Positions 7,680 through 22,488 of a stretch of 39,576 bases of DNA are shown here, in pieces (within the stretch, counting starts at the first letter, position 1; each line of letters opens with the position of its first letter). Source of the DNA: a virus; the IMG/VR virus record IMGVR_UViG_3300031857_000497, positions 1-39,576 of that record. One strand, 5' to 3'. Position numbers and translations under genes: made by a program. The notes beneath the pieces were generated by a model. That model searched no databases. It was not told where the DNA came from and worked only from the letters and a program-made list of their open reading frames with translations.

Positions 7680-8339
7680 ATGAACGATTTTTATGATGGT
7701 GAAGAAGTTGCTGAACAAAATCAAGTAGACAATAAATCAAAAGAAAAAGAAAATGATATTCCAGTTCGTTGGAAAGAGGCAACAACTCAAATGGATTATG
7801 GAATTGATGTTGATGCATCTACTGTTTTGTTATTCGGTGAAATCATGGATGGTTCCTTGTATGACATTATTACTCGTATTCGTGCAATTCTTCATATGAG
7901 AAAAGATGAAAATAAAAATGATCCAATCAACTTGATTATCAATTCTGATGGTGGTTCTGTATATGAGGCACTTGGTATCATTGATTATATGCAAAGTCTT
8001 GATGTTAAAGTAAACACAATTTGTAGAGGTAGGGCAATGTCTGCTGCTGCTTTAATTCTTTGTGCAGGAACAGGAATGCGTCTTGCTTCTCAATACTCTA
8101 CAATTATGTTCCATGAAATTAGTTCTGATATTTACGGTAAATCATCCGATATGAAAGCTAATGTTCAACATATGGAAAAGTTAGAAGAAATACTTTTGGA
8201 AATACTTAAATCTAATTCAAACAAAGATATAGAATTTTGGAAAAATGTAACTATAAAAGATTATTACATTACACCGTCTGATGCATTAAATCTTGGAGTA
8301 ATAGATTCAATAATCCAACCAAAACATAAGAGAGGTTGA
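7680..8339 (+). CDS. ClpP-family serine protease
   Basis: This 219-residue protein is a ClpP/crotonase-fold peptidase. The triad can be read: S121 in GRAMSAAAL, H145 in MFHEIS and D194 in TIKDYYIT, with spacings of 24 and 49 residues, close to bacterial ClpP (25 and 49). The oxyanion-loop segment INSDGGSVYEAL is also typical. Bacterial ClpP forms a 14-mer served by AAA+ unfoldases; phage members may work as prohead proteases or subvert host proteolysis. No ClpX/ClpA partner or capsid gene is in the window, so either use is possible. Residues 1-40 are a charged extension. SD is CAGGAG; the next gene begins 1 bp after the stop. Confidence 0.85.
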   Translation: MNDFYDGEEVAEQNQVDNKSKEKENDIPVRWKEATTQMDYGIDVDASTVLLFGEIMDGSLYDIITRIRAILHMRKDENKNDPINLIINSDGGSVYEALGIIDYMQSLDVKVNTICRGRAMSAAALILCAGTGMRLASQYSTIMFHEISSDIYGKSSDMKANVQHMEKLEEILLEILKSNSNKDIEFWKNVTIKDYYITPSDALNLGVIDSIIQPKHKRG

Positions 8340-8340
8340 T

Positions 8341-8712
8341 ATGATATTAACCATAATTGTATTAACTATATGTTTGGGTATTTCTATTTTTGTTAATATA
8401 AATTTAACAAAAAAGTTTGAACAGTTAGATGAAATGGCACAAGAAAGTATTGATACACTTTTAGAAAACGAAAAGTTTTTAACGGAATTGCGAAACAGAA
8501 TACGGTCACAACAATCTTATTTAAGACAATTAGATAGGATTGGTTCGTTTGAGGCAGATGATGAAACTGGATATTTTTTCAAAGAAATGAAAGATATTAT
8601 GAATGATATTGCAGTTTACTTTGGTGAAAATCCAATCGAAGATGAAAAGAGAAGTATTTTAGAAAATAAAAAATCAGCAGATGTTTCATTTCAAAAGGAT
8701 TATCCGTTATGA
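8341..8712 (+). CDS. Small membrane-anchored coiled-coil protein
   Basis: The 123-residue product starts with a hydrophobic helix (about 2-22) and continues with an acidic helical region likely to form a coiled coil (about 23-65). No family is recognised. It is sandwiched between the ClpP-like gene (1-bp gap) and the sigma factor gene (4-bp ATGA overlap), so all three are probably translated together. It could be a membrane anchor or adaptor for its neighbours. Confidence 0.6.
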   Translation: MILTIIVLTICLGISIFVNINLTKKFEQLDEMAQESIDTLLENEKFLTELRNRIRSQQSYLRQLDRIGSFEADDETGYFFKEMKDIMNDIAVYFGENPIEDEKRSILENKKSADVSFQKDYPL

Positions 8713-9454: not shown

Positions 9455-9817
9455 ATGAAATTTGATGAAGAAATCTTTGGAAGTAAAAAATTTTCTGATT
9501 TGTTAAAAGATATTTACGATAATCAGAAGAAAAAGGATCGTCAGATAAATCTTTTGATTGCTGACTTAAAGCCCATGTTAAACAATATAAGTGATGCGGC
9601 AATACTAGTTCCTGCAATAAAAGATTTTATGGAGGTTTCGGTAAAAAATGATGAACATTTAGTGAAACTAGCAGCAGTTATACAACGGGCTATGGGTGAT
9701 AAAGGTGAAGAATCCTCCTCATTTTTGACTGATGAAGAAAAAGAAGCTCTATTAAAGGGTATACAAGAAATTCAAAACGATCAAGAGGAGAATGATAGTG
9801 AGCGGCCTACCGTTTAA
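9455..9817 (+). CDS. Hypothetical helical protein before spike gene
   Basis: Unrecognised 120-residue protein, predicted mostly helical, with a basic first third and an acidic C-terminus (SSSFLTDEEKEALLKGIQ onward). It lacks a clear SD and starts 11 bp after the sigma factor gene. TATTTATA (9444-9451) ends 3 bases before its ATG, too near to act as its promoter. It overlaps the central spike gene by 20 bp (from GTG 9798), suggesting coupling to baseplate-hub assembly. It could be a small hub or chaperone protein; not shown. Confidence 0.6.
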   Translation: MKFDEEIFGSKKFSDLLKDIYDNQKKKDRQINLLIADLKPMLNNISDAAILVPAIKDFMEVSVKNDEHLVKLAAVIQRAMGDKGEESSSFLTDEEKEALLKGIQEIQNDQEENDSERPTV

Positions 9818-11294
9818 TCCGCAAGTAACGATAATTGATGGGTTTCCTCGTGAGTGGTTTCCTGCTGAAGTATTGGATGTAGATTACGAAGGTCGTGATA
9901 AAACTGCACTATACACGGTATTATGTAGATTATTGGGTGCAATGGGACAAGGGCATAAAGATGTTATACGTGCTCGTGCATTTGATGCCAATATAAAAAA
10001 TATGCCAATTAGGGGAGAGGTTGTTATGCTTACAAAGGCACCATCCCCTTATGCCAGTGCAGGTGGTGTTTCACAAGAATACTACTATACAAATCCTGTT
10101 TCTGTTCAATCATCAATTCATCATAATGGTATTCCTGGAGTAACTTACTGGGTAGAAAGAACTTCACCTGGTAATCGTGTAAAAAGAAATGATGCAGAAG
10201 ATGGTATTCCACATTCAACTAATACAAAATTTGATACACCAACAACTATTGATCCAATTTTTGTAGAACGAAAAGACATTTATCCAATACAACCTTATTC
10301 CGGAGATATAATCCTCGAAGGTAGATGGGGGCAATCTATAAGATTTGGATCAACATTAGATGAAAGAAGAAAATATCCGCAAGTTCCAACTTGGAAAAAG
10401 GGGTTAGGTCAAATAGGTAATCCAATTTTGATAATTTCAAATGGAACAAATCCAGAATTAAAACCAAGAAACGAATTTATATTAGAAAATATAGATGAAG
10501 ATGATTCATCTATTTGGATGACATCTGGACAATATGTAAAATTTGAACCAGCATCCACATATACACCATCAATAACAGATAAAAGTATAAATCTTTTTAC
10601 TAAAAATGAATTTGGTGGAAATTCAGTTATGATTGCTTCTGATAGAATAATTTTTAATTCTCGTAAGCAAGAGCTAATTGGTTTCAGTAAAGAGGGTATT
10701 GGCTTTTCTTCTGAAAAGGGTATATCTCTTGACGGAAAACAAGTAGTTGAAATCGAATCAACACAAAAAATATCATTGGGCATAAATGCAATAGAACCGA
10801 TATTGTTGGGAAAAAGAACAATGACTTGGTTAAATGATTTATGCCAAATACTATTAAATGTTACAAGAGCAATTACACAACAAACACATCCAACTGGAAC
10901 AGGTCCTTCTGGTGTTCCAATAAACATATCTGATTTTTCAACGGCACATTCTGATTTAGTAGAGTTACAAAGTCAAATAGAAAAATTACCAAGTCAATTG
11001 GCATTCGTTAATGAAAAATCAGGTGGTCCATCAGAAAAAGAAGTTCAACAATCAAATGAAAAAATTCTACAAAGTCAATTTATTAAAGAAGGTGATAGTT
11101 CTAATTTGTTGGTAGACACAGGTGAAGGGGCTTTGGAAAACGATGATCCACTAACACTTCTTGCTGATATTGCTGATATTGAACAAGAAAAAATAAAACT
11201 AATAGATCAAATTTTAGGAGATATTGATCCAAAATTTGATTATGGAACTTCTCTTGTTGGCGGCGATGACGAAAATTCTGGAGGACCAGTGTAA
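9798..11294 (+). CDS. 5: Baseplate central spike / hub protein, gp5-like without lysozyme
   Basis: The N-terminal part holds an OB-fold-like region (IRGEVVMLTKAPSPYAS around residues 75-90) and the phrase GDIILEGRWGQSIRFGS (about 169-185), typical of gp5-type spike proteins in T4-related phages. It is followed by a repetitive beta segment (about 275-335, with NSRKQELIGFSKEGIGFSSE) that looks like a trimeric beta-helix needle, then a helical, Gln-rich tail. The muramidase domain found in T4 gp5 is not visible; wall cleavage may be left to the enzymes encoded downstream. GTG 9798 is preferred to ATG 9792 because GAGGAG (9785-9790) is 7 nt upstream of the GTG but only 1 nt from the ATG. The product is 498 residues. 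Confidence 0.7.
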   Translation: MSGLPFNPQVTIIDGFPREWFPAEVLDVDYEGRDKTALYTVLCRLLGAMGQGHKDVIRARAFDANIKNMPIRGEVVMLTKAPSPYASAGGVSQEYYYTNPVSVQSSIHHNGIPGVTYWVERTSPGNRVKRNDAEDGIPHSTNTKFDTPTTIDPIFVERKDIYPIQPYSGDIILEGRWGQSIRFGSTLDERRKYPQVPTWKKGLGQIGNPILIISNGTNPELKPRNEFILENIDEDDSSIWMTSGQYVKFEPASTYTPSITDKSINLFTKNEFGGNSVMIASDRIIFNSRKQELIGFSKEGIGFSSEKGISLDGKQVVEIESTQKISLGINAIEPILLGKRTMTWLNDLCQILLNVTRAITQQTHPTGTGPSGVPINISDFSTAHSDLVELQSQIEKLPSQLAFVNEKSGGPSEKEVQQSNEKILQSQFIKEGDSSNLLVDTGEGALENDDPLTLLADIADIEQEKIKLIDQILGDIDPKFDYGTSLVGGDDENSGGPV

Positions 11295-11296
11295 TT

Positions 11297-14200
11297 ATGG
11301 GAATATCATGGAATAAAAATTTAGTTAAATTTATACCAGGTTCTGCAACAACACCTGATAAATACGAACTTGAAGTTTTTCAAGGAGATACTATAAATCT
11401 TCTTGATTATGTTGTATTTGAACCAGGCGGAACAAAAAATGCTCTCAATACTTGGAAATTAAGTCTTGTTAATGCTGCACACTTTACTGATAACGGTCCA
11501 ACCGATCCTGGAGATTTATCACAATTTAACGATTCTTTTTATGATGATTCAGAAGTAACACAATATGCTTCAAAGTATGCTTTAGATTGGAATGCTGAAA
11601 TAAAACCAATACCATTATCAGTTCCATCAATTATCATAGATAAATTTGGAATACTGGAAACATCAAGTGCTGTATTTAGAGTTGCTAGTGAAATTGAAGT
11701 TTGGGTAAATTTTGGAAAAAAAGTACCAGGTGATTTAATTTTAGATCCACCATCGGATAAACCAACTGATGAAATCAAAAAATTAACAATTAAAATAAAA
11801 TCAAACTCATTATTGGGAGAAGGTGGATTATTAAATGGTGTGACTGGATCGATTGATTCTTTTGTTACCGATTCACTAAAATATGTAAGTAGTGCTTTAG
11901 TTGGTGTTGCTGGTTTCATCGGAGAAGGTGTTGCTTGGGGGATAAGTCAAGTTGAAGGTTTATATCCATCTGGATCTAAAGGTTATAGTGAAGAAGATGC
12001 GAGACAAAAATTAGAAGAAGAAAAAGATAGAGAGGCAAGTCTTTTTTCAACAGTAATTGGTTATCCATTTACTGCATTAGATTTCTTAACTAAGAAACAA
12101 AATGCAACTCTGATTAAATCCGGATTAAAGGCATTATCTAGTGCTGCAAAAATATATCAATTATATGCTCAAGGAAAATCTGCAATAGCAACTGGTAGAC
12201 TTCTTGCAAATTTAAGAACATTACTTGATTACGAAAAATTATCACCAGGATTACAAATAAAAGTTGCTAATTTTTTAGGAACTAGCCCAAAAACTATTAA
12301 ACGAATAATATGGGTTGTTAATAAGATAATAGAAATAGAAAAAATGGTAAGTGATGGTAACTACGATGCTTTACAGGAATATGTATTAAAAGAGGCAGAG
12401 AATGTAAAATCATTAGATGATTTACCCAAAGAATTAAGAGAATTTGCAACCGGTGAAGCATTTTCAGAATTGTCTCCAGGATCAGTTGTAACAAAAAAAT
12501 TACAAATTGTTGATAAAGACAATCTAAAACTTATAGTAGAAAATCCATCATATAGAAAAACAGAAGGTAATAATATAGTTTTGAATCAAATTATTATTAA
12601 ATCTATAAATAAAGAAGGGGATTTTATACCGATAAAGTCAATCTCTATTGGAAAAATAACATCTCCTGGATTTGTAGATGGATTTACCGCAAATGAATTA
12701 TTCTATGACTATAACACCAACAGAGATATTTGCACCATTACAATACCAAATACTTATGGATCAGAAACTGGTGCAGATCCAATATCATCTGGATTGTTTC
12801 CAAATGGTAGTATGGAACTTAAAATAAATCTAGATAACACAAAATATCAACAACAATATGAGGGAACTGACCCAATAAGGTCTGGTGTAATTCCATTTCA
12901 AATAGATTACAAATTTATTGGTAATAGTATACCAAGATTAGTTTATAGAAAATTCAATGCCGCTACAAAAATTTATGAAGAAGTTAGTGAGGAATTGCCA
13001 CATATTTTAGACAGAGGTGAAGAAGTAACTGAAACAGTTTCATATGATAATGTAATTCCTGGTTCTTGGGCGGAACAAAATTTTGGTCAAAATCCAATTA
13101 CATTAGAACAAGGTTTTGATATTGCAAAAAATGGATTGGCAGTTTACAACTTATACAAGAAGAAACAATTTTTATCTATATTTGATGCAGTAGATTTCAA
13201 AAATTTACCAGCTCCTGTTCAAACATTTATTTTTAGCACAGCTGCACTAATAGGAATAGATGAATCCGAAATAATTAGATATTATGAAGTTTTAAGTGGT
13301 GCAAAGAACTTATATGAATTATCAACAAAAGGATTTCAACATTACAATTCACTTCCACCAGAATTAAAGGCAAAAATCTCAAAACAATTAGGTGTTAGTG
13401 AGGAAGTATTGGGTGATGTAATTCCCATTGCTGGCGATATTACCGATTTAATAAGTGGAAAGAGGTTTAATGGACCTGGTGAGAAAGAAAAATTTGCTGA
13501 AGGTTTATTCGATAAAGTAGGTCAAAGTTTGCTCAATAAATGGGGACCAAATGCGGAAGTTTGGGAGAACTATAATGCATATGACAAGAAAACTGGAAAA
13601 GTAACTCCAGGCGGTGGAACCCTTGATCCAAAAATGAAACAAACTATTGCACTTTCAATGGGATTTACTAACATAAAAGCTGCACCACAACCTTACAAAA
13701 AGGATCCTGTAACTGGTAAGGACATAACACATACAGAAGTAAATGGTCTTGCTATAGTAAAATGTGGAATTGCTATAGATAAAGCATTAAAATTCAAAGA
13801 ATCACTTGCAAAAGGAATAAGTGTTAAAAATAGATTATTGCAAAAATATGAACAAGTGAAAAATTCACCGGATATACTTCAAGATGAGGCATTACTTACT
13901 GGAGTATATGATGAATTGGTAGATACTAGAGAAGACTTTGAAAAAGAAGATTTCTTCAAAGACATATATGATTCTGCAAAAGAATTGACAGAGGATCCTT
14001 ATGCTGATTTATTAGATTCAGCGGCCTCACTACCTCCTGGAGTTCCAGGTGCTGGTGATCCGAATTGGAGACAAAAATACAATGTTGAAGACAAATATGT
14101 AGTTGAAGATTCAACAGGAGCGCCTCCAAGTGGTGTAAAGGGTGTATTGCAATATGGAACATACATAATATACACTCACCCATGGATAGAAGATATTGGA

Positions 14201-14854
14201 CAAAATCCTGAAACAGGATTACCCGTATTTAAGGGAACGCCACCGTCTGGATTTATATTCAAACATTCTGATACAAATTGGGTAGTTGAAGGTGATCCAA
14301 ATGTAAGTGAATCACAAAGAAAAACTCTTGGATTGACAAAAGAATTGAAATACAGATATGCTTTTGCCAGTGGAGATTTTAATTTATTAGAACCTTTTAG
14401 GGTAACAAAATATCTTCGTGGTCTTGCAAGGATAGGTGTATACAATTCAAGCGGTAAAAGTTTCAATGAAAAATACTTTACACCTACATCCATATTGATT
14501 GAAAAAATTAAGAAAGAAAATCCAAACTACCCAACAAAACAACAAAGACCTATTTATATTGGTGATGAACTTGTACCACTTGCTGTAACAAATAAAACAA
14601 CTGTTCCAGGAGGTGCAACATTTGATAAAGATGGAAAACAGATTGCCAATGCGGATGCATTTACCAATATAGAAGAAATAAGAAAGGCTGAAACACGAAT
14701 AACACCGGTAGGTACACCACTTGGTCTTGAAGGTTCAAAGACTGATGGTGCAAATGTATCAACTACAAAAACACCATTAAAATTTGGCGAAGGTGGTATA
14801 ACATACACTCCTTTACCAGTTCCAACAATTAAAATATCATTGGAGATAGGTTAA
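11297..14854 (+). CDS. Very large tail protein with internal helical repeats, unknown
   Basis: No family is recognised for this 1185-residue protein. It begins with a beta-rich part (1-170), a glycine/alanine-rich hydrophobic stretch (about 195-225, SALVGVAGFIGEGVAWGIS) that could insert in or cross a membrane, then helical regions. A helical unit recurs: YQLYAQGK plus LSPGLQIKVANFLG (about 286-330), YNLYKKKQ plus LPAPVQTFIFSTAALIG (about 615-655), and LPPELKAKISKQLGVS (about 685-702). A beta-rich segment lies between (about 400-580) and a Pro/Gly-rich C-terminal part follows. It is placed between the spike and two enzyme genes, 2 bp after the former and with a 1-nt gap to the next gene. It may be a hub or tape-associated component; that is inference. 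Confidence 0.65.
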   Translation: MGISWNKNLVKFIPGSATTPDKYELEVFQGDTINLLDYVVFEPGGTKNALNTWKLSLVNAAHFTDNGPTDPGDLSQFNDSFYDDSEVTQYASKYALDWNAEIKPIPLSVPSIIIDKFGILETSSAVFRVASEIEVWVNFGKKVPGDLILDPPSDKPTDEIKKLTIKIKSNSLLGEGGLLNGVTGSIDSFVTDSLKYVSSALVGVAGFIGEGVAWGISQVEGLYPSGSKGYSEEDARQKLEEEKDREASLFSTVIGYPFTALDFLTKKQNATLIKSGLKALSSAAKIYQLYAQGKSAIATGRLLANLRTLLDYEKLSPGLQIKVANFLGTSPKTIKRIIWVVNKIIEIEKMVSDGNYDALQEYVLKEAENVKSLDDLPKELREFATGEAFSELSPGSVVTKKLQIVDKDNLKLIVENPSYRKTEGNNIVLNQIIIKSINKEGDFIPIKSISIGKITSPGFVDGFTANELFYDYNTNRDICTITIPNTYGSETGADPISSGLFPNGSMELKINLDNTKYQQQYEGTDPIRSGVIPFQIDYKFIGNSIPRLVYRKFNAATKIYEEVSEELPHILDRGEEVTETVSYDNVIPGSWAEQNFGQNPITLEQGFDIAKNGLAVYNLYKKKQFLSIFDAVDFKNLPAPVQTFIFSTAALIGIDESEIIRYYEVLSGAKNLYELSTKGFQHYNSLPPELKAKISKQLGVSEEVLGDVIPIAGDITDLISGKRFNGPGEKEKFAEGLFDKVGQSLLNKWGPNAEVWENYNAYDKKTGKVTPGGGTLDPKMKQTIALSMGFTNIKAAPQPYKKDPVTGKDITHTEVNGLAIVKCGIAIDKALKFKESLAKGISVKNRLLQKYEQVKNSPDILQDEALLTGVYDELVDTREDFEKEDFFKDIYDSAKELTEDPYADLLDSAASLPPGVPGAGDPNWRQKYNVEDKYVVEDSTGAPPSGVKGVLQYGTYIIYTHPWIEDIGQNPETGLPVFKGTPPSGFIFKHSDTNWVVEGDPNVSESQRKTLGLTKELKYRYAFASGDFNLLEPFRVTKYLRGLARIGVYNSSGKSFNEKYFTPTSILIEKIKKENPNYPTKQQRPIYIGDELVPLAVTNKTTVPGGATFDKDGKQIANADAFTNIEEIRKAETRITPVGTPLGLEGSKTDGANVSTTKTPLKFGEGGITYTPLPVPTIKISLEIG

Positions 14855-17041
14855 ATGGCAAAAGTTTCATTTGAATTTGATAATGAAGGGTATATCAATG
14901 TTCGTGGTGAAAAATACTCTGCACTTGAAATAGTAAATGATGCGGGAGATACTGCGTTAGATTGGATGTTAGCATCTGATAATGCAGAATTAGTTGCACT
15001 TGCAAGAACATGGGGATTGACTCCAGACAAAGATGATAAAACTGGATCAGTAGAAGAAAAACCCACAGATGATCCTGAAAACGAAGGTAATGTGGATAAT
15101 GCAGTTGATAAGTCTGATACTGGTAGTGGTGGACTGTCCAACGAAGAAATTACAAGTTTAACTGATAAACTTAACATATTGTTTGGATATAAAGTTGTTA
15201 AAGGTGTTGTTCAAAAGGATTCTAAAACTGGAAAACCAGTTATAGCAAATCAAAAGGCCGCTATTAAAATTACAGGTGGTGTTGAGCCAAAAATTCAAGC
15301 CGATGGAACCATTGACATTCCAGGTGATGTTACAATAAATTTAGTTTCAGGAGACAAATCGTTACCGTCAGTAAAAGATGGTAAATTTACTGTAAAATTT
15401 GGAACTATTGGTGGTAATTTTATATGCAGGGGTGTAAAACTTTCATCACTTGAAGGTGGTCCTAAAAAAGTCACTGGACAATTTGATATTTCAAAAAATG
15501 AATTAACTTCATTAGTTGGTTCTCCAGAAGAAGTTGGTAGTTTTTTTGCTACTGATAATAAAAAATTAACATCATTGGCCGGTGGACCAAAAATAATAAA
15601 GGGAATAACTGATACAAATAAGAGTCAAAAAGAATATATCTATGATGTATCTGGCTGTGGATTAACAACATTAGAAGGAAACGGAATAACTTCTTTTGGT
15701 CCAGGTGGGTTTAATTGCGGTGGCAATAAAATTACAAGTTTAGCCGGTTTGGGTGTTGTTACTTCAACTGGTGTAACAAGATTTGATTGTTCTAACAATC
15801 AATTAACATCATTAAATGGAATACCAAAACCAGTAAAAGATACAAAAACTGGTAAACCTGGTAGTTATTGGATAAGTAATAACATTCAAATAACAGTATT
15901 TCCTGTTAATATGGCAGATTTTGAAGTTGATGGATTTGTTGCTAGTGGGTTATCATTAACATCACTTTCTTTTGCACCAAAACAAATATACGGAGATTTT
16001 GATTGTACTAATAATAAAGGTGCAAAAAAACTTACAAATCAAAGTATCGGTTTGGATCGTTTCAAAAAAGGTGGTGGATTTGAAGAAGATGCCGGAAACC
16101 GTATTGTAAAAATAGATGGTGAATTTATTACAAGTGAAGGTGTTTGGAAAGACAAAACATATGATGTTAATACATCATTCAAGAAAGGTGAATCTGTTGG
16201 TGGTGGTGTTTTATCAACAACAAGTGGTGGTGTAATTCAATATAAATATGGAAATGGTACTATAGCACTTACTTTAATTAACAACTTTAGCATTGGATTT
16301 GGAAAAATTACTCCAGTTGTTGATTCAAAAGGAGTACAAATTCGTGGAAGTAATGAAGGAACTGGTTTCAAATATCATTTTGAGGGATTTACACCAAGAA
16401 ACCCTAACCCACAAGCAGTTAAAGGTGCTTACATGGGTCCAAAAGATTATGATGGTAAAATAAGTGGAATGGGATTTGAAGTTTGGCCAGAAAAATATAA
16501 AAATTATATCAACTGGGGAACATGGGAAGCTGCTAGCACTGGATGGGGAACTCTACAACCAACTTGTGCGTTTATTTGGAATGGCAAAAATTATGGTGCA
16601 AAAACAAAAACGTGTGGCAATATATCGGTTGCTATTAGTAGAGGACAACCATCATTAGTATATTCATCAACATATTGGGATAAATCAACTGAAAAATTAA
16701 AACCAAATGCACCTGTAGATCTTTTAATGGCAGGTGGTAGTTCTACTGTTGTTGAAAAAGGTGTAGTTCAAACTGCAAGTTTCTCAAAAGACGATAGAGG
16801 ATGGCCATTTATCGGACAGGCAACACTTAAAGATGGTAAAAAAACTTGGTTTGCGGGTGCAAGTTTAAGTGGTCATTCTGGAAATCAACTTGGGCAAGGA
16901 TTGGTTGAGTATTTTAAGTCGATTGGTGGTAACGTAATAATTGCTGCTCATGGAGATGGTGGAGGATCAACTGCATTTGTTGTAAATAGAAAAGCATACA
17001 CTTCTGGCAACAGACAAGTTTCAGTTATATTATATTGGTAA
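14855..17041 (+). CDS. Leucine-rich-repeat tail protein with C-terminal NAGPA-like glycosidase domain
   Basis: This 728-residue protein combines three parts. Residues 5-57 form a short module ending ALARTWGLTPD that recurs in the next protein. Residues ~186-395 are leucine-rich repeats of a phage type, with units such as LSSLEGGPKKVTGQFDIS, NELTSLVGSPEEVGSF and NNQLTSLNGIPKPV. The C-terminal ~200 residues look like the phosphodiester glycosidase (NAGPA) fold: a CAFIWNGKNYG strand, DLLMAGGSS, and finally HGDGGGSTAFVVNRK with DGGGST at 701-706 followed by the usual NRK...VILYW end. LRRs may bind the receptor or glycan and the NAGPA domain may cut sugar phosphodiester linkages on the cell surface. 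SD is GGAG (GGAGATAGG). Virion location is inferred from position. Confidence 0.7.
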   Translation: MAKVSFEFDNEGYINVRGEKYSALEIVNDAGDTALDWMLASDNAELVALARTWGLTPDKDDKTGSVEEKPTDDPENEGNVDNAVDKSDTGSGGLSNEEITSLTDKLNILFGYKVVKGVVQKDSKTGKPVIANQKAAIKITGGVEPKIQADGTIDIPGDVTINLVSGDKSLPSVKDGKFTVKFGTIGGNFICRGVKLSSLEGGPKKVTGQFDISKNELTSLVGSPEEVGSFFATDNKKLTSLAGGPKIIKGITDTNKSQKEYIYDVSGCGLTTLEGNGITSFGPGGFNCGGNKITSLAGLGVVTSTGVTRFDCSNNQLTSLNGIPKPVKDTKTGKPGSYWISNNIQITVFPVNMADFEVDGFVASGLSLTSLSFAPKQIYGDFDCTNNKGAKKLTNQSIGLDRFKKGGGFEEDAGNRIVKIDGEFITSEGVWKDKTYDVNTSFKKGESVGGGVLSTTSGGVIQYKYGNGTIALTLINNFSIGFGKITPVVDSKGVQIRGSNEGTGFKYHFEGFTPRNPNPQAVKGAYMGPKDYDGKISGMGFEVWPEKYKNYINWGTWEAASTGWGTLQPTCAFIWNGKNYGAKTKTCGNISVAISRGQPSLVYSSTYWDKSTEKLKPNAPVDLLMAGGSSTVVEKGVVQTASFSKDDRGWPFIGQATLKDGKKTWFAGASLSGHSGNQLGQGLVEYFKSIGGNVIIAAHGDGGGSTAFVVNRKAYTSGNRQVSVILYW

Positions 17042-17059
17042 AAATAATAGAGAAAAAAT

Positions 17060-19627
17060 ATGCCAAGAACAGTAGATGATATAGAACAAGATAGTGCTCC
17101 TGATATTAGGATTGCTAGACGTGCATTGAATAGCAATTTACAAGATAACACTAAAATTGATAGAGTTTCTGATGAAGTAAAAGACGATCAATCTAATAAA
17201 AGAACTGATGACGATGGTGGTCAAGATAAATCAAAAAATCCAGATAGTGTTTTTTATCAAGGCGGTAATAATACATCTGGCGGTAATAATACATCTGGCG
17301 GTAATAATACATCTGGTGGAGATGATGATAGTTCTGATGATGAAAACTTAGGTAATTTTGTCAGAGATTTATTCGGAGACAATAAAGAAGAAGACGAAGA
17401 AATTGAAAAACCCGATGATAGGGGACCAACAGATGAAGAACTTGATAAAGAAGAACCTGGTGGTAATGAAGAATCTGGCGGAGAAGCCAATGAAGAAAGA
17501 ACAGGACAATTTGGTTCAAATGACAATTCCGATGATGACAATACAGAAGATCCACCAAACAAAGATGAAAAAGTTAGTATAAATTATTCTCGAAGAAATC
17601 GCAGTAAAGGTGTTACGGTAACATATAAAGGTGTAACATATCAAGTAGATACAAAGGGAACTGAATCCACCACAGATGGCGGTGGTGATCAAGAATGGTT
17701 AGATGATACATTTACCATTGGATCAACTGTAATAAATCTTTCTGAATTTTCAAGTAAGTCTGATTCTGAAAAATTAGAAATTGTTAAAAAAGCGTTGGGG
17801 GAGTCTGGAACACCAACAACTCCACCATCTGGAAAAAAATATAATGTTAATGGATTGGCTTGGTTTCTAAAAAGAGATTCCAAATATGGTGCCCGTGTTA
17901 GTATAGCCGATCCAGATGACACGAAAAAAAGTATATTTTTTGACGATATTGGTAATATAACAGTAAAAGATGTAACCTACACTGCAAAAGAAGTATTTTA
18001 TGAAAACGAATCTGCAGTTGCTTGGTTAAAAAAACAAGTTGATGATACAAAATCAGAAGAATTGGCTGCACTTTATGCGGGATGGGGTTTTACACCCGAT
18101 GCACCACCAGCTGATACACCGAAAGATGAAAACCCAGCAACAAATCCTGATGATCCTGAGAAAAAATTTGAACCAAAATTAAAAGAAAATACAACACCAG
18201 AAGGTGCACCAACAAATGTAGAAAATAGTGCTGCACTTACAACTGGAAAATTAAGAGAACTTAATGGTAAAATTGTTGCTCCTGGAGCAAGTATCAATAT
18301 GTGGGCATCACATATAGATTACAAAGTGCCAAAATATCCAACATCAAATGGGTATTATGGTATTCGTGATCAAAAAGCAAAAACAGATGGATTGGGATTT
18401 GCAAAAGACGAATACAATATCGAAACAAAACTTATCGGTGCTGTAAAAGTTCATTTTAATGCCCAATGGGAAAAGTTAATATCAGGTACTCCAGTTCCTG
18501 TTGCAAAAAATTCTGAAGATCTTAATTTAATAGATTATCCAATAATAATGAATTTTACAGAAGTTGGTGTTTGGAATAAAAAAGTTCCTTATGTTGCTGA
18601 TACACAAACAGAACAGCATAGAATGTTATACAAAGGTTATAGTGGTGGAAGGTATAATATGGATAAATGGGGTATTGGATCTTTTGGTGCCGGTGAAAAC
18701 AAAGGAGGATTTGCTAATTGGGCTGAACAACCACATTGGTGTGGTATATTTACACAACATTGTATAAATCATGGTGGATATACTTTTCCAGGAGATCCGG
18801 TTGCTTTAGCTGCTGCTAATAAAATTAACGATGTATATTTTAATTCTTCACTTAAAAAATTAAAAGAAGTAGGATTAGAAGAAGCAAGTGAATGTTTTGC
18901 TAATGTACCAACTTATTTGGATTCTGCTGGTAAAAGTGTTCCAGTTAAAAAGTTTTTGGATAAAAAGGGATTTGGTGTAAAAGGTGGAAAAAGTGATTAT
19001 TTTACAGATGTATATGGTATTCTTTTAGAAAGTGCAACTTATTCAGAAACAACTGAAAATGAAGTTGTTATGGTTCCAGATGGAAATAAATTAAAACCAA
19101 AAAAGAAAACAAAAGTAAATAGAGAAAAAATACCTGTTGCAGTTAGAGAATCATTATTACCAAATCCAATAATGGTATACTTTATAGGTGGTATTCATTT
19201 TACAAAAGATGGATTAACTTCACAAGGAAAAAAATTATTAGAACATTTTTTATCACAAAGAGGATGGGAGGTTTCTATAATAAGTCGTGGTGGACACATT
19301 GAGGTTTGTCCTTATATTAACCCTGATGGCACTATTGCTCGTTTTGGAGGAAACACTGGTGCAAGTTCATTTGTTAGTAGAGACGGTGGAAAATTTGCTG
19401 CAAAAGGTAGTTCAATATGGGCTTTTAGTGGTGGTGCAAAAGCTGGAACATTTGTTGTATTTACAAAAGTTATTCCAAAGGCTGGATCTCAAAAAGTTGA
19501 GCCAACAATGAACGGACAATTCAGAAGAACGCCGATTGTTGATAGTTATTATAGAAGTATAGATAATAAAACCATATTACCAACATTAAAAAACGTTTTA
19601 TACGATCAAATCGTTGAAAAAGAATAA
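17060..19627 (+). CDS. Tail-associated CHAP-like cysteine peptidase with acidic linker
   Basis: Residues 1-180 are disordered and very acidic, including three GGNNTS units and runs of Asp/Glu. Residues ~293-347 (FFDDIGNITVKDVTYTAKEV to LYAGWGFTPD) match the N-terminal module of the preceding protein. A Pro/Asp-rich linker follows, and the C-terminal half appears enzymatic: QPHWCGIFTQHC with C561 as probable nucleophile and RGGHIEVCPY with H746 as probable partner, followed by an FGGNTG turn, the order seen in CHAP/NlpC-P60-type amidases and endopeptidases. The Cys-His distance (185 residues) is long for CHAP, implying an insertion. Probable role: cutting peptidoglycan peptides during DNA entry. 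Domain identification is moderate. Confidence 0.6.
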   Translation: MPRTVDDIEQDSAPDIRIARRALNSNLQDNTKIDRVSDEVKDDQSNKRTDDDGGQDKSKNPDSVFYQGGNNTSGGNNTSGGNNTSGGDDDSSDDENLGNFVRDLFGDNKEEDEEIEKPDDRGPTDEELDKEEPGGNEESGGEANEERTGQFGSNDNSDDDNTEDPPNKDEKVSINYSRRNRSKGVTVTYKGVTYQVDTKGTESTTDGGGDQEWLDDTFTIGSTVINLSEFSSKSDSEKLEIVKKALGESGTPTTPPSGKKYNVNGLAWFLKRDSKYGARVSIADPDDTKKSIFFDDIGNITVKDVTYTAKEVFYENESAVAWLKKQVDDTKSEELAALYAGWGFTPDAPPADTPKDENPATNPDDPEKKFEPKLKENTTPEGAPTNVENSAALTTGKLRELNGKIVAPGASINMWASHIDYKVPKYPTSNGYYGIRDQKAKTDGLGFAKDEYNIETKLIGAVKVHFNAQWEKLISGTPVPVAKNSEDLNLIDYPIIMNFTEVGVWNKKVPYVADTQTEQHRMLYKGYSGGRYNMDKWGIGSFGAGENKGGFANWAEQPHWCGIFTQHCINHGGYTFPGDPVALAAANKINDVYFNSSLKKLKEVGLEEASECFANVPTYLDSAGKSVPVKKFLDKKGFGVKGGKSDYFTDVYGILLESATYSETTENEVVMVPDGNKLKPKKKTKVNREKIPVAVRESLLPNPIMVYFIGGIHFTKDGLTSQGKKLLEHFLSQRGWEVSIISRGGHIEVCPYINPDGTIARFGGNTGASSFVSRDGGKFAAKGSSIWAFSGGAKAGTFVVFTKVIPKAGSQKVEPTMNGQFRRTPIVDSYYRSIDNKTILPTLKNVLYDQIVEKE
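17261..17314 (+). repeat. Three tandem 18-bp repeats
   Basis: GGCGGTAATAATACATCT occurs three times in tandem (17261-17278, 17279-17296, 17297-17314), apparently identical, encoding three GGNNTS units in the flexible N-terminal linker of the peptidase. Identity at DNA level suggests recent expansion or slippage. Confidence 0.95.
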
Positions 19628-20071: not shown

Positions 20072-20581
20072 TTGAGACCACTTTCAAGATCCGGAAATAG
20101 AATAAATTATTTTCAAAAACCTATAAATGAAGGAAACGCCACACAAGGTAACAAGTTTGTTGGTGTAACATTGCCTTTTAATAATCCAAAGGGTATTTTC
20201 TTTCAAAGTAGAACAAATGTAAAACAGTTGTTTTCAAATGTGAGAAACTTGTTATTAACAACAAGAGGTGAGAGATATATGATTCCTGATTTTGGAACAA
20301 ATCTCAAAGCTATATTGTTTGAAAATATAACAAGTGAAGATCAATTTTTAGAAAGTATAAAATCTGATATTGTAGAGGCATTAAATACATGGATGCCTTT
20401 TTTAACAATAGAAAAATTGACAGTTAATATAAATCCAGATGCATCAAATTTAGCCGAAAACGATCATGCGATACAAATAGATTTAACCTTAAAACTTAGA
20501 GAAACAACAATATATTTACCAATAAGACTATTTATATCTACAATAGGTAGAATTGAAATTGCGGCAATAGAACCGCGATGA
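20072..20581 (+). CDS. 25: Baseplate wedge protein gp25-like (GPW/gp25 family)
   Basis: The gp25 family forms the inner wedge ring that contacts the sheath and links to gp6 in contractile tails. The 169-residue protein shows the core NVRNLLLTTRGERYMIPDFG (about 54-73) followed by TNLKAILFEN, and the C-terminal beta part LTLKLRETTIYLPIRLFIS. The start codon is TTG at 20072, supported by GGAG at 20061-20064 with a 7-nt spacing; no ATG exists before the conserved core except well downstream. The gp6-like gene follows at once, the usual contractile-tail order. Confidence 0.9.
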   Translation: MRPLSRSGNRINYFQKPINEGNATQGNKFVGVTLPFNNPKGIFFQSRTNVKQLFSNVRNLLLTTRGERYMIPDFGTNLKAILFENITSEDQFLESIKSDIVEALNTWMPFLTIEKLTVNINPDASNLAENDHAIQIDLTLKLRETTIYLPIRLFISTIGRIEIAAIEPR

Positions 20582-20598
20582 AAATATAGGTGATAAAA

Positions 20599-22488
20599 AT
20601 GGCTTTAATCCAAAAAGATATTCGTTATTCAAATAGAGATTTCAATTCATTAAAAAAATCTTTGATTGATTTTTCTAAAAACTATTTTCCAGATACATAC
20701 CAAGATTTCAATGAAACATCACCTGGAATGTTATTTTTGGAAATGGCAGCTTATGTTGGGGATGTTTTGTCATTTTATACAGATGTTACATTACAAGAAT
20801 CAATGATTCTGTTTGCCAATGAACGTCAAAATATACTCAACATTGCACATTCTCTCGGTTATTCACCAAAAAATAGAGTTGCAGCAAATACAGTATTGGA
20901 TGTTTTTCAAGTTCTACCTGCAAAAAAAGTAGGTACTGAAATAGTTCCAGATTATGATTATGCAATGGCAATAGAACCTGGAATGCGTGTTTCACCAACA
21001 ACTGATGGAACAATTACATTTAGAACAATAGATTATATTGATTTTAAGTCAAGTAGTAGTTTTGATCCAACAGAAGTAACACCGTATGAAATAGATAATA
21101 CAACGGGAGAAGTTACATTTTGGCTTTTAAGAAAGCAAGCAAAAGCCATTTCCGGAACAATTAGATCTACCACATTTAGTGCAGGGGATCCAAAACCATA
21201 CGATAAATTTACAATAGAAGAAACTGATATAATAGAAATTCTTTATGCAATAGATACAGAAGGAAACAAATGGGAACACGTTCCAAATTTGGCACAAGAT
21301 ACTCTATTTGAACCAGTGTTAAACATACCAAGAAATGACAAACAATTAAGTAAATATAGATCAGAAACACCATACTTACTTAAATTGAGAAAAGTTCCTA
21401 GAAGATTTACTTCAAGACAGATGGCAAATGGAAATGTAGAAATACAGTTTGGTGCCGGAATAAGTGATGTAGATGATGAACTGTTAATTCCAAATCCAGA
21501 TTTGGTCGGAGGTTCTTTGCCTATGACAAATCCAAATCTATCAATAAACATAGATCCTTCAAACTTTTTGTATACAAAAACATATGGTCTTGCACCAAAC
21601 AATACAACATTAACATTTTTCTATACAATCGGTGGTGGAACGGAAGATAATGTTCCAAGTGAAGTATTGAACAATGTTCTGAATAGAATAGTAGTTTTAG
21701 ATCCAACCGGATTAGATCCTGTATTATATGGTCAAATTGTATCCAGTTTAGCTGTAACAAATCCAAGACCTGCAACAGGTGGTAAATTTCAAGAAGATAT
21801 ACAAGAAATTAGACAAAATGCCGTTGCTTCTTTTGCTGCACAAAATCGTGCAGTTACAAAAGAAGATTACATAATCCGTGCATATAGTTTACCGTCAAAG
21901 TATGGTTCCATTGCAAAGGCATATATTACAAAAGATACTCAATTAACGAAGGATTCTATATTCAATAGTGATAGAGTTCAAAATGATTTGGCTCTAAATT
22001 TTTATGTTCTTGGTTATGATGTAAATGGTAAACTTACAACAGTAAACAATGCTACAAAAGAAAATCTAAAAAATTATTTGAATTGGTATAGAATACTAAC
22101 AGACGCAATTAACATTCGTGATGCTTATATTATCAATATAGGTGTAAATTTTGACATAATAACTTTACCTGATCAAAATTCAAATCAAGTAGTTCTTCGT
22201 TGTATTGACCGGTTAAAACAATACTTTGATGTAAACAAATGGCAAATAAATCAACCTATTGTGATAAGCAACATATACACAGAATTAGATAGAGTTCCTG
22301 GTGTTCAAACCGTAGTAAATGTAAAAATTAGAAATTTATTTGATACGAACTTGGGTTACTCTCCTCATGCTTACAACATAGAACAAGCAACAAAAGATGG
22401 TGTTTTGTTTCCATCATTAGATCCATCTATTTTTGAAATAAAATATCCAAACAATGATATTGTTGGTAGAGCGAGGTCATTCGGATGA
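20599..22488 (+). CDS. 6: Baseplate wedge protein gp6-like
   Basis: gp6 (baseplate J-like in other phages) dimerises to form the continuous inner ring of the baseplate. The 629-residue length is close to T4 gp6 (660). Support is the N-terminal segment DIRYSNRDFNSLKKSLIDF and ETSPGMLFLEMAAYVGDVLS (about 43-62), characteristic of this family, plus RAVTKEDYIIRAYSLPSKYG in the C-terminal half, a J-protein hallmark. The ATG at 20599 is chosen over GTG 20590 because AGGTGAT (20588-20594) then serves as the SD. Its stop overlaps the next ATG (ATGA). Confidence 0.92.
   Translation: MALIQKDIRYSNRDFNSLKKSLIDFSKNYFPDTYQDFNETSPGMLFLEMAAYVGDVLSFYTDVTLQESMILFANERQNILNIAHSLGYSPKNRVAANTVLDVFQVLPAKKVGTEIVPDYDYAMAIEPGMRVSPTTDGTITFRTIDYIDFKSSSSFDPTEVTPYEIDNTTGEVTFWLLRKQAKAISGTIRSTTFSAGDPKPYDKFTIEETDIIEILYAIDTEGNKWEHVPNLAQDTLFEPVLNIPRNDKQLSKYRSETPYLLKLRKVPRRFTSRQMANGNVEIQFGAGISDVDDELLIPNPDLVGGSLPMTNPNLSINIDPSNFLYTKTYGLAPNNTTLTFFYTIGGGTEDNVPSEVLNNVLNRIVVLDPTGLDPVLYGQIVSSLAVTNPRPATGGKFQEDIQEIRQNAVASFAAQNRAVTKEDYIIRAYSLPSKYGSIAKAYITKDTQLTKDSIFNSDRVQNDLALNFYVLGYDVNGKLTTVNNATKENLKNYLNWYRILTDAINIRDAYIINIGVNFDIITLPDQNSNQVVLRCIDRLKQYFDVNKWQINQPIVISNIYTELDRVPGVQTVVNVKIRNLFDTNLGYSPHAYNIEQATKDGVLFPSLDPSIFEIKYPNNDIVGRARSFG

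Follow-up and report, generated by a model that had tools for sequence, protein, structure and literature searches.

A shared, undescribed module in two adjacent candidate tail enzymes of an uncultured freshwater myovirus

Two adjacent genes in this genome fragment encode proteins that look like cell wall-degrading enzymes, and the question raised by the locus is whether they carry a common domain and, if so, whether it docks exchangeable enzymes to the phage tail. The stretch analysed (the window, to which all coordinates below refer) covers 39.6 kb of the genome of an uncultured freshwater myovirus, and it was compared with related IMG/VR contigs and phages (identified by L-numbers, e.g., L003 and L028); L095 is the Microcystis phage Mel-JY01. 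Three genes, here termed U, A and B, lie between a spike-like gene and genes for gp25- and gp6-like baseplate proteins, with a gene for a 142-aa protein between B and the gp25-like gene. The open reading frames of A (14855-17041, 728 aa) and B (17060-19627, 855 aa) were found at the coordinates given by the initial annotation. The features of the locus are as follows.

9792-11294, plus strand: spike or hub candidate of 500 aa, upstream of the cassette and conserved in all relatives
11297-14854, plus strand: U, cassette protein of 1185 aa
14303-14776, plus strand: U residues 1003-1160, counterpart of the N-terminal part of A in L011, L012, L030 and L035
14798-14851, plus strand: C-terminal end of U, ITYTPLPVPTIKISLEIG, speculatively the first two strands of the module, severed by the gene border
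14855-15028, plus strand: second half of the shared module at the N-terminus of A (BLASTP, profile-profile comparison, HMM)
15302-16177, plus strand: leucine-rich repeat (LRR) region of A, the conserved arm (LRR_4, E = 0.002; Foldseek matches are LRR proteins)
16181-17038, plus strand: exchangeable C-terminal enzyme domain of A, NAGPA-like, with DGGGST (PF09992, E = 0.004, below cut-off)
17570-17806, plus strand: second small module of B (NRSKG..YKGVxYxID), unrelated to the shared module by profile
17846-18100, plus strand: full shared module of B (BLASTP, profile-profile comparison, model)
18116-18253, plus strand: Pro/Lys/Glu linker of B, kept in every B homolog, an alternative docking candidate
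18725-19369, plus strand: Cys/His peptidase-like region of B (C561, H746 and N765 invariant; TIGR02594 weak)
20072-20581, plus strand: gp25-like baseplate wedge protein (PF04965, E = 7e-10)
20590-22488, plus strand: gp6-like baseplate wedge protein (phrog_219, E = 4e-23; the ATG at 20599 may be the start)

A and B are thus encoded in a conserved baseplate cluster, with homologs of gp25 and gp6 downstream, in agreement with the tail setting proposed initially, and both are predicted to be located in the virion. Among relatives, the gp6- and gp25-like proteins are 68-98% identical, as opposed to about 40% for A and B, and identity of the spike candidate is 69-97% within the clade and 59% to Mel-JY01. 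U, A and B may therefore form a fast-changing enzyme cassette beside the conserved spike-like and gp25/gp6 genes. The initial annotation had also expected a spike without the lysozyme domain of T4 gp5, and this was borne out in that no lysozyme domain was detected in the 500-aa candidate, for which searches of Pfam and PHROG returned no match. Elsewhere in the window, a 123-aa reading frame (8341-8712) adjoining the head maturation protease gene (7680-8339) shows a weak match to Rz-like spanins (phrog_89, E = 0.004).

The two proteins do share a module. Residues 3-58 of A and 289-347 of B are homologous, although only about 30-40% identical over 55 residues. Compared in full by BLASTP, the proteins align over A 3-118 and B 289-410 (38.1 bits, E = 1e-6, compositionally adjusted), with the runner-up match at just 25 bits. 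Profile-profile comparison of A-type with B-type modules gave a probability of 97.1% (E = 7.2e-11, 87 columns). An HMM built from the A-type copies of five other contigs, with the B rows and the window row left out, recovered the B proteins of the window (E = 1e-6), L028 (3e-9) and L009 (1e-8) among 575 reading frames, and its remaining matches were all A or B proteins, none of them unrelated. The similarity of the family is therefore significant at the profile level and independent of the query pair. The low identity of the window pair is what might suggest a resemblance by chance or composition, but this explanation is scarcely credible and is ruled out by the three comparisons, the last of which is free of both B and window sequences. 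The copies in A and B share one ancestor, probably through duplication and recombination between the adjacent genes. The Pro/Asp-rich linkers that follow them, and that had been described together with the module as common to both proteins, are by contrast not detectably related (hhalign probability 0.1%).

The stretch of about 55 residues originally reported is real and shared, but represents only the second half of a module that, in B and in the A proteins of L010-L012 and L035, measures about 90-105 residues in full. The A genes of the window, L003 and L028 start within the module and encode it only from roughly the third strand onward. In A of L010-L012, L030 and L035 the module stands behind 70-230 residues, and hence is not N-terminal in most relatives. 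In the AF2 model of the B copy (residues 266-341, pLDDT 62-78), two helices come after five strands, and the AlphaFold model of the A copy is weak (pLDDT 33-51). The predicted order of elements is the same in both, at low confidence for A, whose first strands in the window are borrowed from U. These models suggest a small, beta-rich accessory domain, and the module invariably adjoins a flexible linker that connects it to the LRR or the enzyme.

No description of such a module was found in the resources searched, as the initial annotation had supposed. It is absent from Pfam, has no solved homolog or credible match in the PDB, and has as its best PHROG match a 70-residue unknown family (E = 0.03). 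Across 50,697 phage records, the HMM search that had been suggested yielded nothing credible, and in the related contigs only A and B were found; in whole contigs of up to 77 kb there is at most one copy in A and one in B, and none elsewhere. Matches of the module profile to NHL repeats (TRIM2/3, E = 0.0085-0.03) were taken as chance, reflecting a hairpin motif (FD..G.I.V). With Foldseek, the model of B had no significant match and that of A matched only LRR proteins, and B as a protein had no match in annotated phage records or bacterial genome contigs.

The position of the module at the start of A draws attention to the gene border. A follows U directly in the window, L003 and L028, its ATG coming right after the TAA of U and in frame with it, and a GGAG, likely a ribosome-binding site, stands ahead of the ATG. 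Stop-codon reassignment or read-through at the TAA was considered and is unneeded, given the ordinary stops in the genes and the GGAG. A pre-module stretch of 150 residues closes U in the window (11297-14855) but opens A in L011, L012, L030 and L035 (L011:422, L012:5290, L030:5709), which means that the U/A border has shifted. The module might then be a split domain in the window lineage, whose parts lie at the end of U and the start of A and reassemble, clamping A to U, and whose parts are fused in one chain elsewhere. The in-frame TAA and ATG and the shifting pre-module stretch agree with this, as does the AF2 model, where the U tail forms two strands, ordered as in B. Their pLDDT is only 33-42, however, dN/dS of the tail is about 0.95 over 27 codons, and 94 of 500 shuffled tails equal its score with the module HMM, which thus gives no support to the U tail as the missing half of the A module. 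On balance a split domain is very unlikely. A wider proposal, that the module is a coupling domain locking the A and B arms to one tail receptor, with a movable border by which A is either fused or split-clamped to U, is itself unlikely; if true, it would describe a swap-tolerant connector for baseplate enzymes. As a separate observation, the last 27 codons of U (14771-14851) show a dS of 0.25 against L028, versus 0.9-1.05 in the flanking parts of U, a value that rests on few sites and that is perhaps caused by the ribosome-binding site of A. In L009, a short separate reading frame upstream of B (L009:939-1145) resembles the N-terminus of B (15 bits), which is missing from the B of that contig, pointing to another shifted gene border.

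Enzymes are exchanged in A, where the LRR region is 59-96% identical between relatives and the C-terminal enzyme domain 24-58%. Between the window and its sister contig L003, identity is 98% in the module and 94% in the LRR, but 35% in the enzyme, and between L010 and L011 the corresponding values are 98, 96 and 32%. L003 and L010, on the other hand, have an enzyme type in common (58%) though their LRRs are only 60% identical. The joint of exchange is therefore sharp and lies behind the LRR, not at the module, which stays with the LRR. In L012, a GH24 phage lysozyme replaces the NAGPA-like domain on the same module-LRR arm (PF00959, E = 4.7e-8; 33.9 bits, above the Pfam cut-off of 22.3). Compared by eye with the Glu-Asp-Thr catalytic triad of T4 lysozyme, its stretch EGKEKYVYDD...PTIGIG has E and D nine apart and a T preceded by an insertion; a PDB sequence search with this domain returned no match. 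A may accordingly be described as a putative tail arm, comprising module, linker and LRR, that would bear an interchangeable C-terminal enzyme.

The NAGPA and CHAP-like labels given initially to A and B are plausible, but their scores fall under the curated cut-offs. The C-terminus of window A reaches 17.8 bits with PF09992, against a gathering cut-off of 25, and NAGPA structures lead its PDB profile matches (E = 0.08, aligned at DGGGS). Like NAGPA, it has the DGGGS motif, the R that follows and the strand pattern; the motif is kept in the window, L028, L003 and L010 and changed in L030, L035, L061, L011 and L009, with DGSAS or DPGGS in some relatives, unlike NAGPA. A literature search, limited to the papers available, for NAGPA in baseplates or for shared docking domains found none.

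B contains a WCG motif and, later, GGHIE and GGNTG, and like the CHAP/TIGR02594 amidases it has an invariant Cys, His and Asn (10 homologs), of which C561 and H746 would be the catalytic residues. The B enzyme is probably a Cys/His amidase, judging by these motifs, and B may represent a second arm with a Cys/His-peptidase-like enzyme. It differs from the CHAP/TIGR02594 amidases in a Cys-His gap of about 185 residues and in its marginal profile scores (TIGR02594 in 4 of 10 members, best E = 0.002, 13.7 bits against an NCBIfam cut-off of 70.6), and neither PDB searches nor the AF2 model confirmed a Cys/His amidase in the enzyme region. The disordered N-terminal part of B includes a GGNNTS tandem repeat (about 17255-17315), the length of which differs between relatives. 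A peptide at the N-terminus of B common to Mel-like endolysins was considered and dropped, the match being weak.

The slot between the spike-like and gp25-like genes is occupied differently in other phages. The cultured phage Mel-JY01, whose gp6 is 70% identical, has no U-A-B but a 343-aa GH19-type endolysin (annotated as a putative chitinase; phrog_181, E = 1e-32; PDB endolysins, E = 4e-13), contig L112 encodes a related endolysin, and the protein that fills the slot of Flavobacterium phage immuto and of marine relatives has no recognizable enzyme domain. The GH19-type endolysins indicate that the slot itself bears interchangeable wall enzymes independently of the module. The initial proposal of interchangeable enzymes is hence upheld by the NAGPA-like subtypes, the GH24 of L012 and the GH19 type of Mel-JY01, but the joint had been placed at the wrong domain.

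In B, the module is not constant. It is present in all eight A proteins compared over their N-terminal part, and in B of the window, L003, L028, L030, L061, L009, L010 and L011. One B lineage has lost it, with B of L012, L035 and L036 keeping linker and enzyme, and the Mel-JY01 endolysin in the same slot is also without it. The module is thus not carried by every enzyme of the slot and is no obligatory dock. The second small module of B follows the opposite pattern, being lost in L010 and L011 and kept in L012 and L035; its predicted strand-helix order is similar, but no kinship with the shared module was detectable in sequence (hhalign probability 0.3-4%). Compared with the window B, module and enzyme domain are 66 and 41% identical in L061, 62 and 72% in L028, and 16 and 49% in L009. 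A module tree that unites the A copies in one group is rejected (p-AU 0.005, or 0.037 without two long rows, both subject to long-branch caveats). These unequal identities and unsorted trees suggest recombination at the level of the module.

A small, beta-rich, enzyme-attached unit that is optional in B and recombines could also be a substrate-binding accessory domain, comparable to SH3b or LysM on endolysins, which leads both enzymes to the same wall or surface polymer and plays no part in docking. Against this, the module stays constant in A while the enzyme changes family, and it has no endolysin or wall protein match in Pfam, phage records or PDB searches; we consider such a role somewhat unlikely.

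Alternatively, the 45-residue linker of B may be the attachment element and the module a mere passenger or spacer. Among the more divergent B proteins, linker identity is 61-79% and enzyme identity 41-49% (L028, 72%), and the linker is retained even in the B proteins that have no module. With an HMM of the linker, the best reading frame other than B was the Mel-JY01 endolysin of the same locus (13.9 bits, next 6.6; equalled by 0 of 2000 shuffles), at aa 94-123 (L095:13424-14452). This match, however, is a Pro/Lys-rich stretch of 30 residues that was spotted by eye before testing, the related endolysin of L112 scores weakly (1.5 bits, 25 of 2000 shuffles), and A has no linker related to that of B. 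Attachment through the linker is for these reasons a doubtful explanation as well.

The reading that we prefer, tentatively and at a little under even chances, is that U, A and B form an enzyme cassette with two enzyme arms, in which the shared module is an adaptor, constant in A and optional in B. The module would have spread between the neighbouring A and B genes by duplication and recombination, and as an adaptor it would most likely pack the arms against each other or against U as the tail is assembled. Phages whose hosts vary their cell envelopes have to renew the tail enzymes while leaving the baseplate intact, and this cluster shows one route, in which the baseplate is conserved, the module-LRR arm is fixed, enzyme families are swapped at a defined joint, and a neighbouring second enzyme bears a homologous, undescribed domain. 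If module or linker is a connector, it would predict in testable form which enzymes can be fitted to contractile tails, and supply an HMM for finding such cassettes in unannotated viral genomes.

As in phage T4, where the lysozyme sits inside the spike protein gp5 (PMC3004832), a wall-degrading enzyme appears to be encoded within the baseplate gene cluster. Unlike in T4, no lysozyme domain was detected in the spike candidate and each enzyme is part of a protein of its own, with the GH24 domain of L012 placed on the LRR arm; by analogy, the enzymes of A and B may serve in place of the gp5 lysozyme. The exchange in A resembles that in the modular receptor-binding proteins and depolymerases reported from Klebsiella phages (PMC8262889), and in tailspikes with a fixed anchor and an exchanged C-terminal enzyme (PMC10408124), in that a constant N-terminal part is combined with a C-terminal enzyme swapped between relatives. 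The cassette belongs neither to the Klebsiella phage type nor to the T4 gp5 family: its constant part is a new module with an LRR in a baseplate cluster, the swapped enzymes are NAGPA-like and GH24 rather than beta-helix depolymerases, and an adjacent second enzyme protein bears a homologous module.
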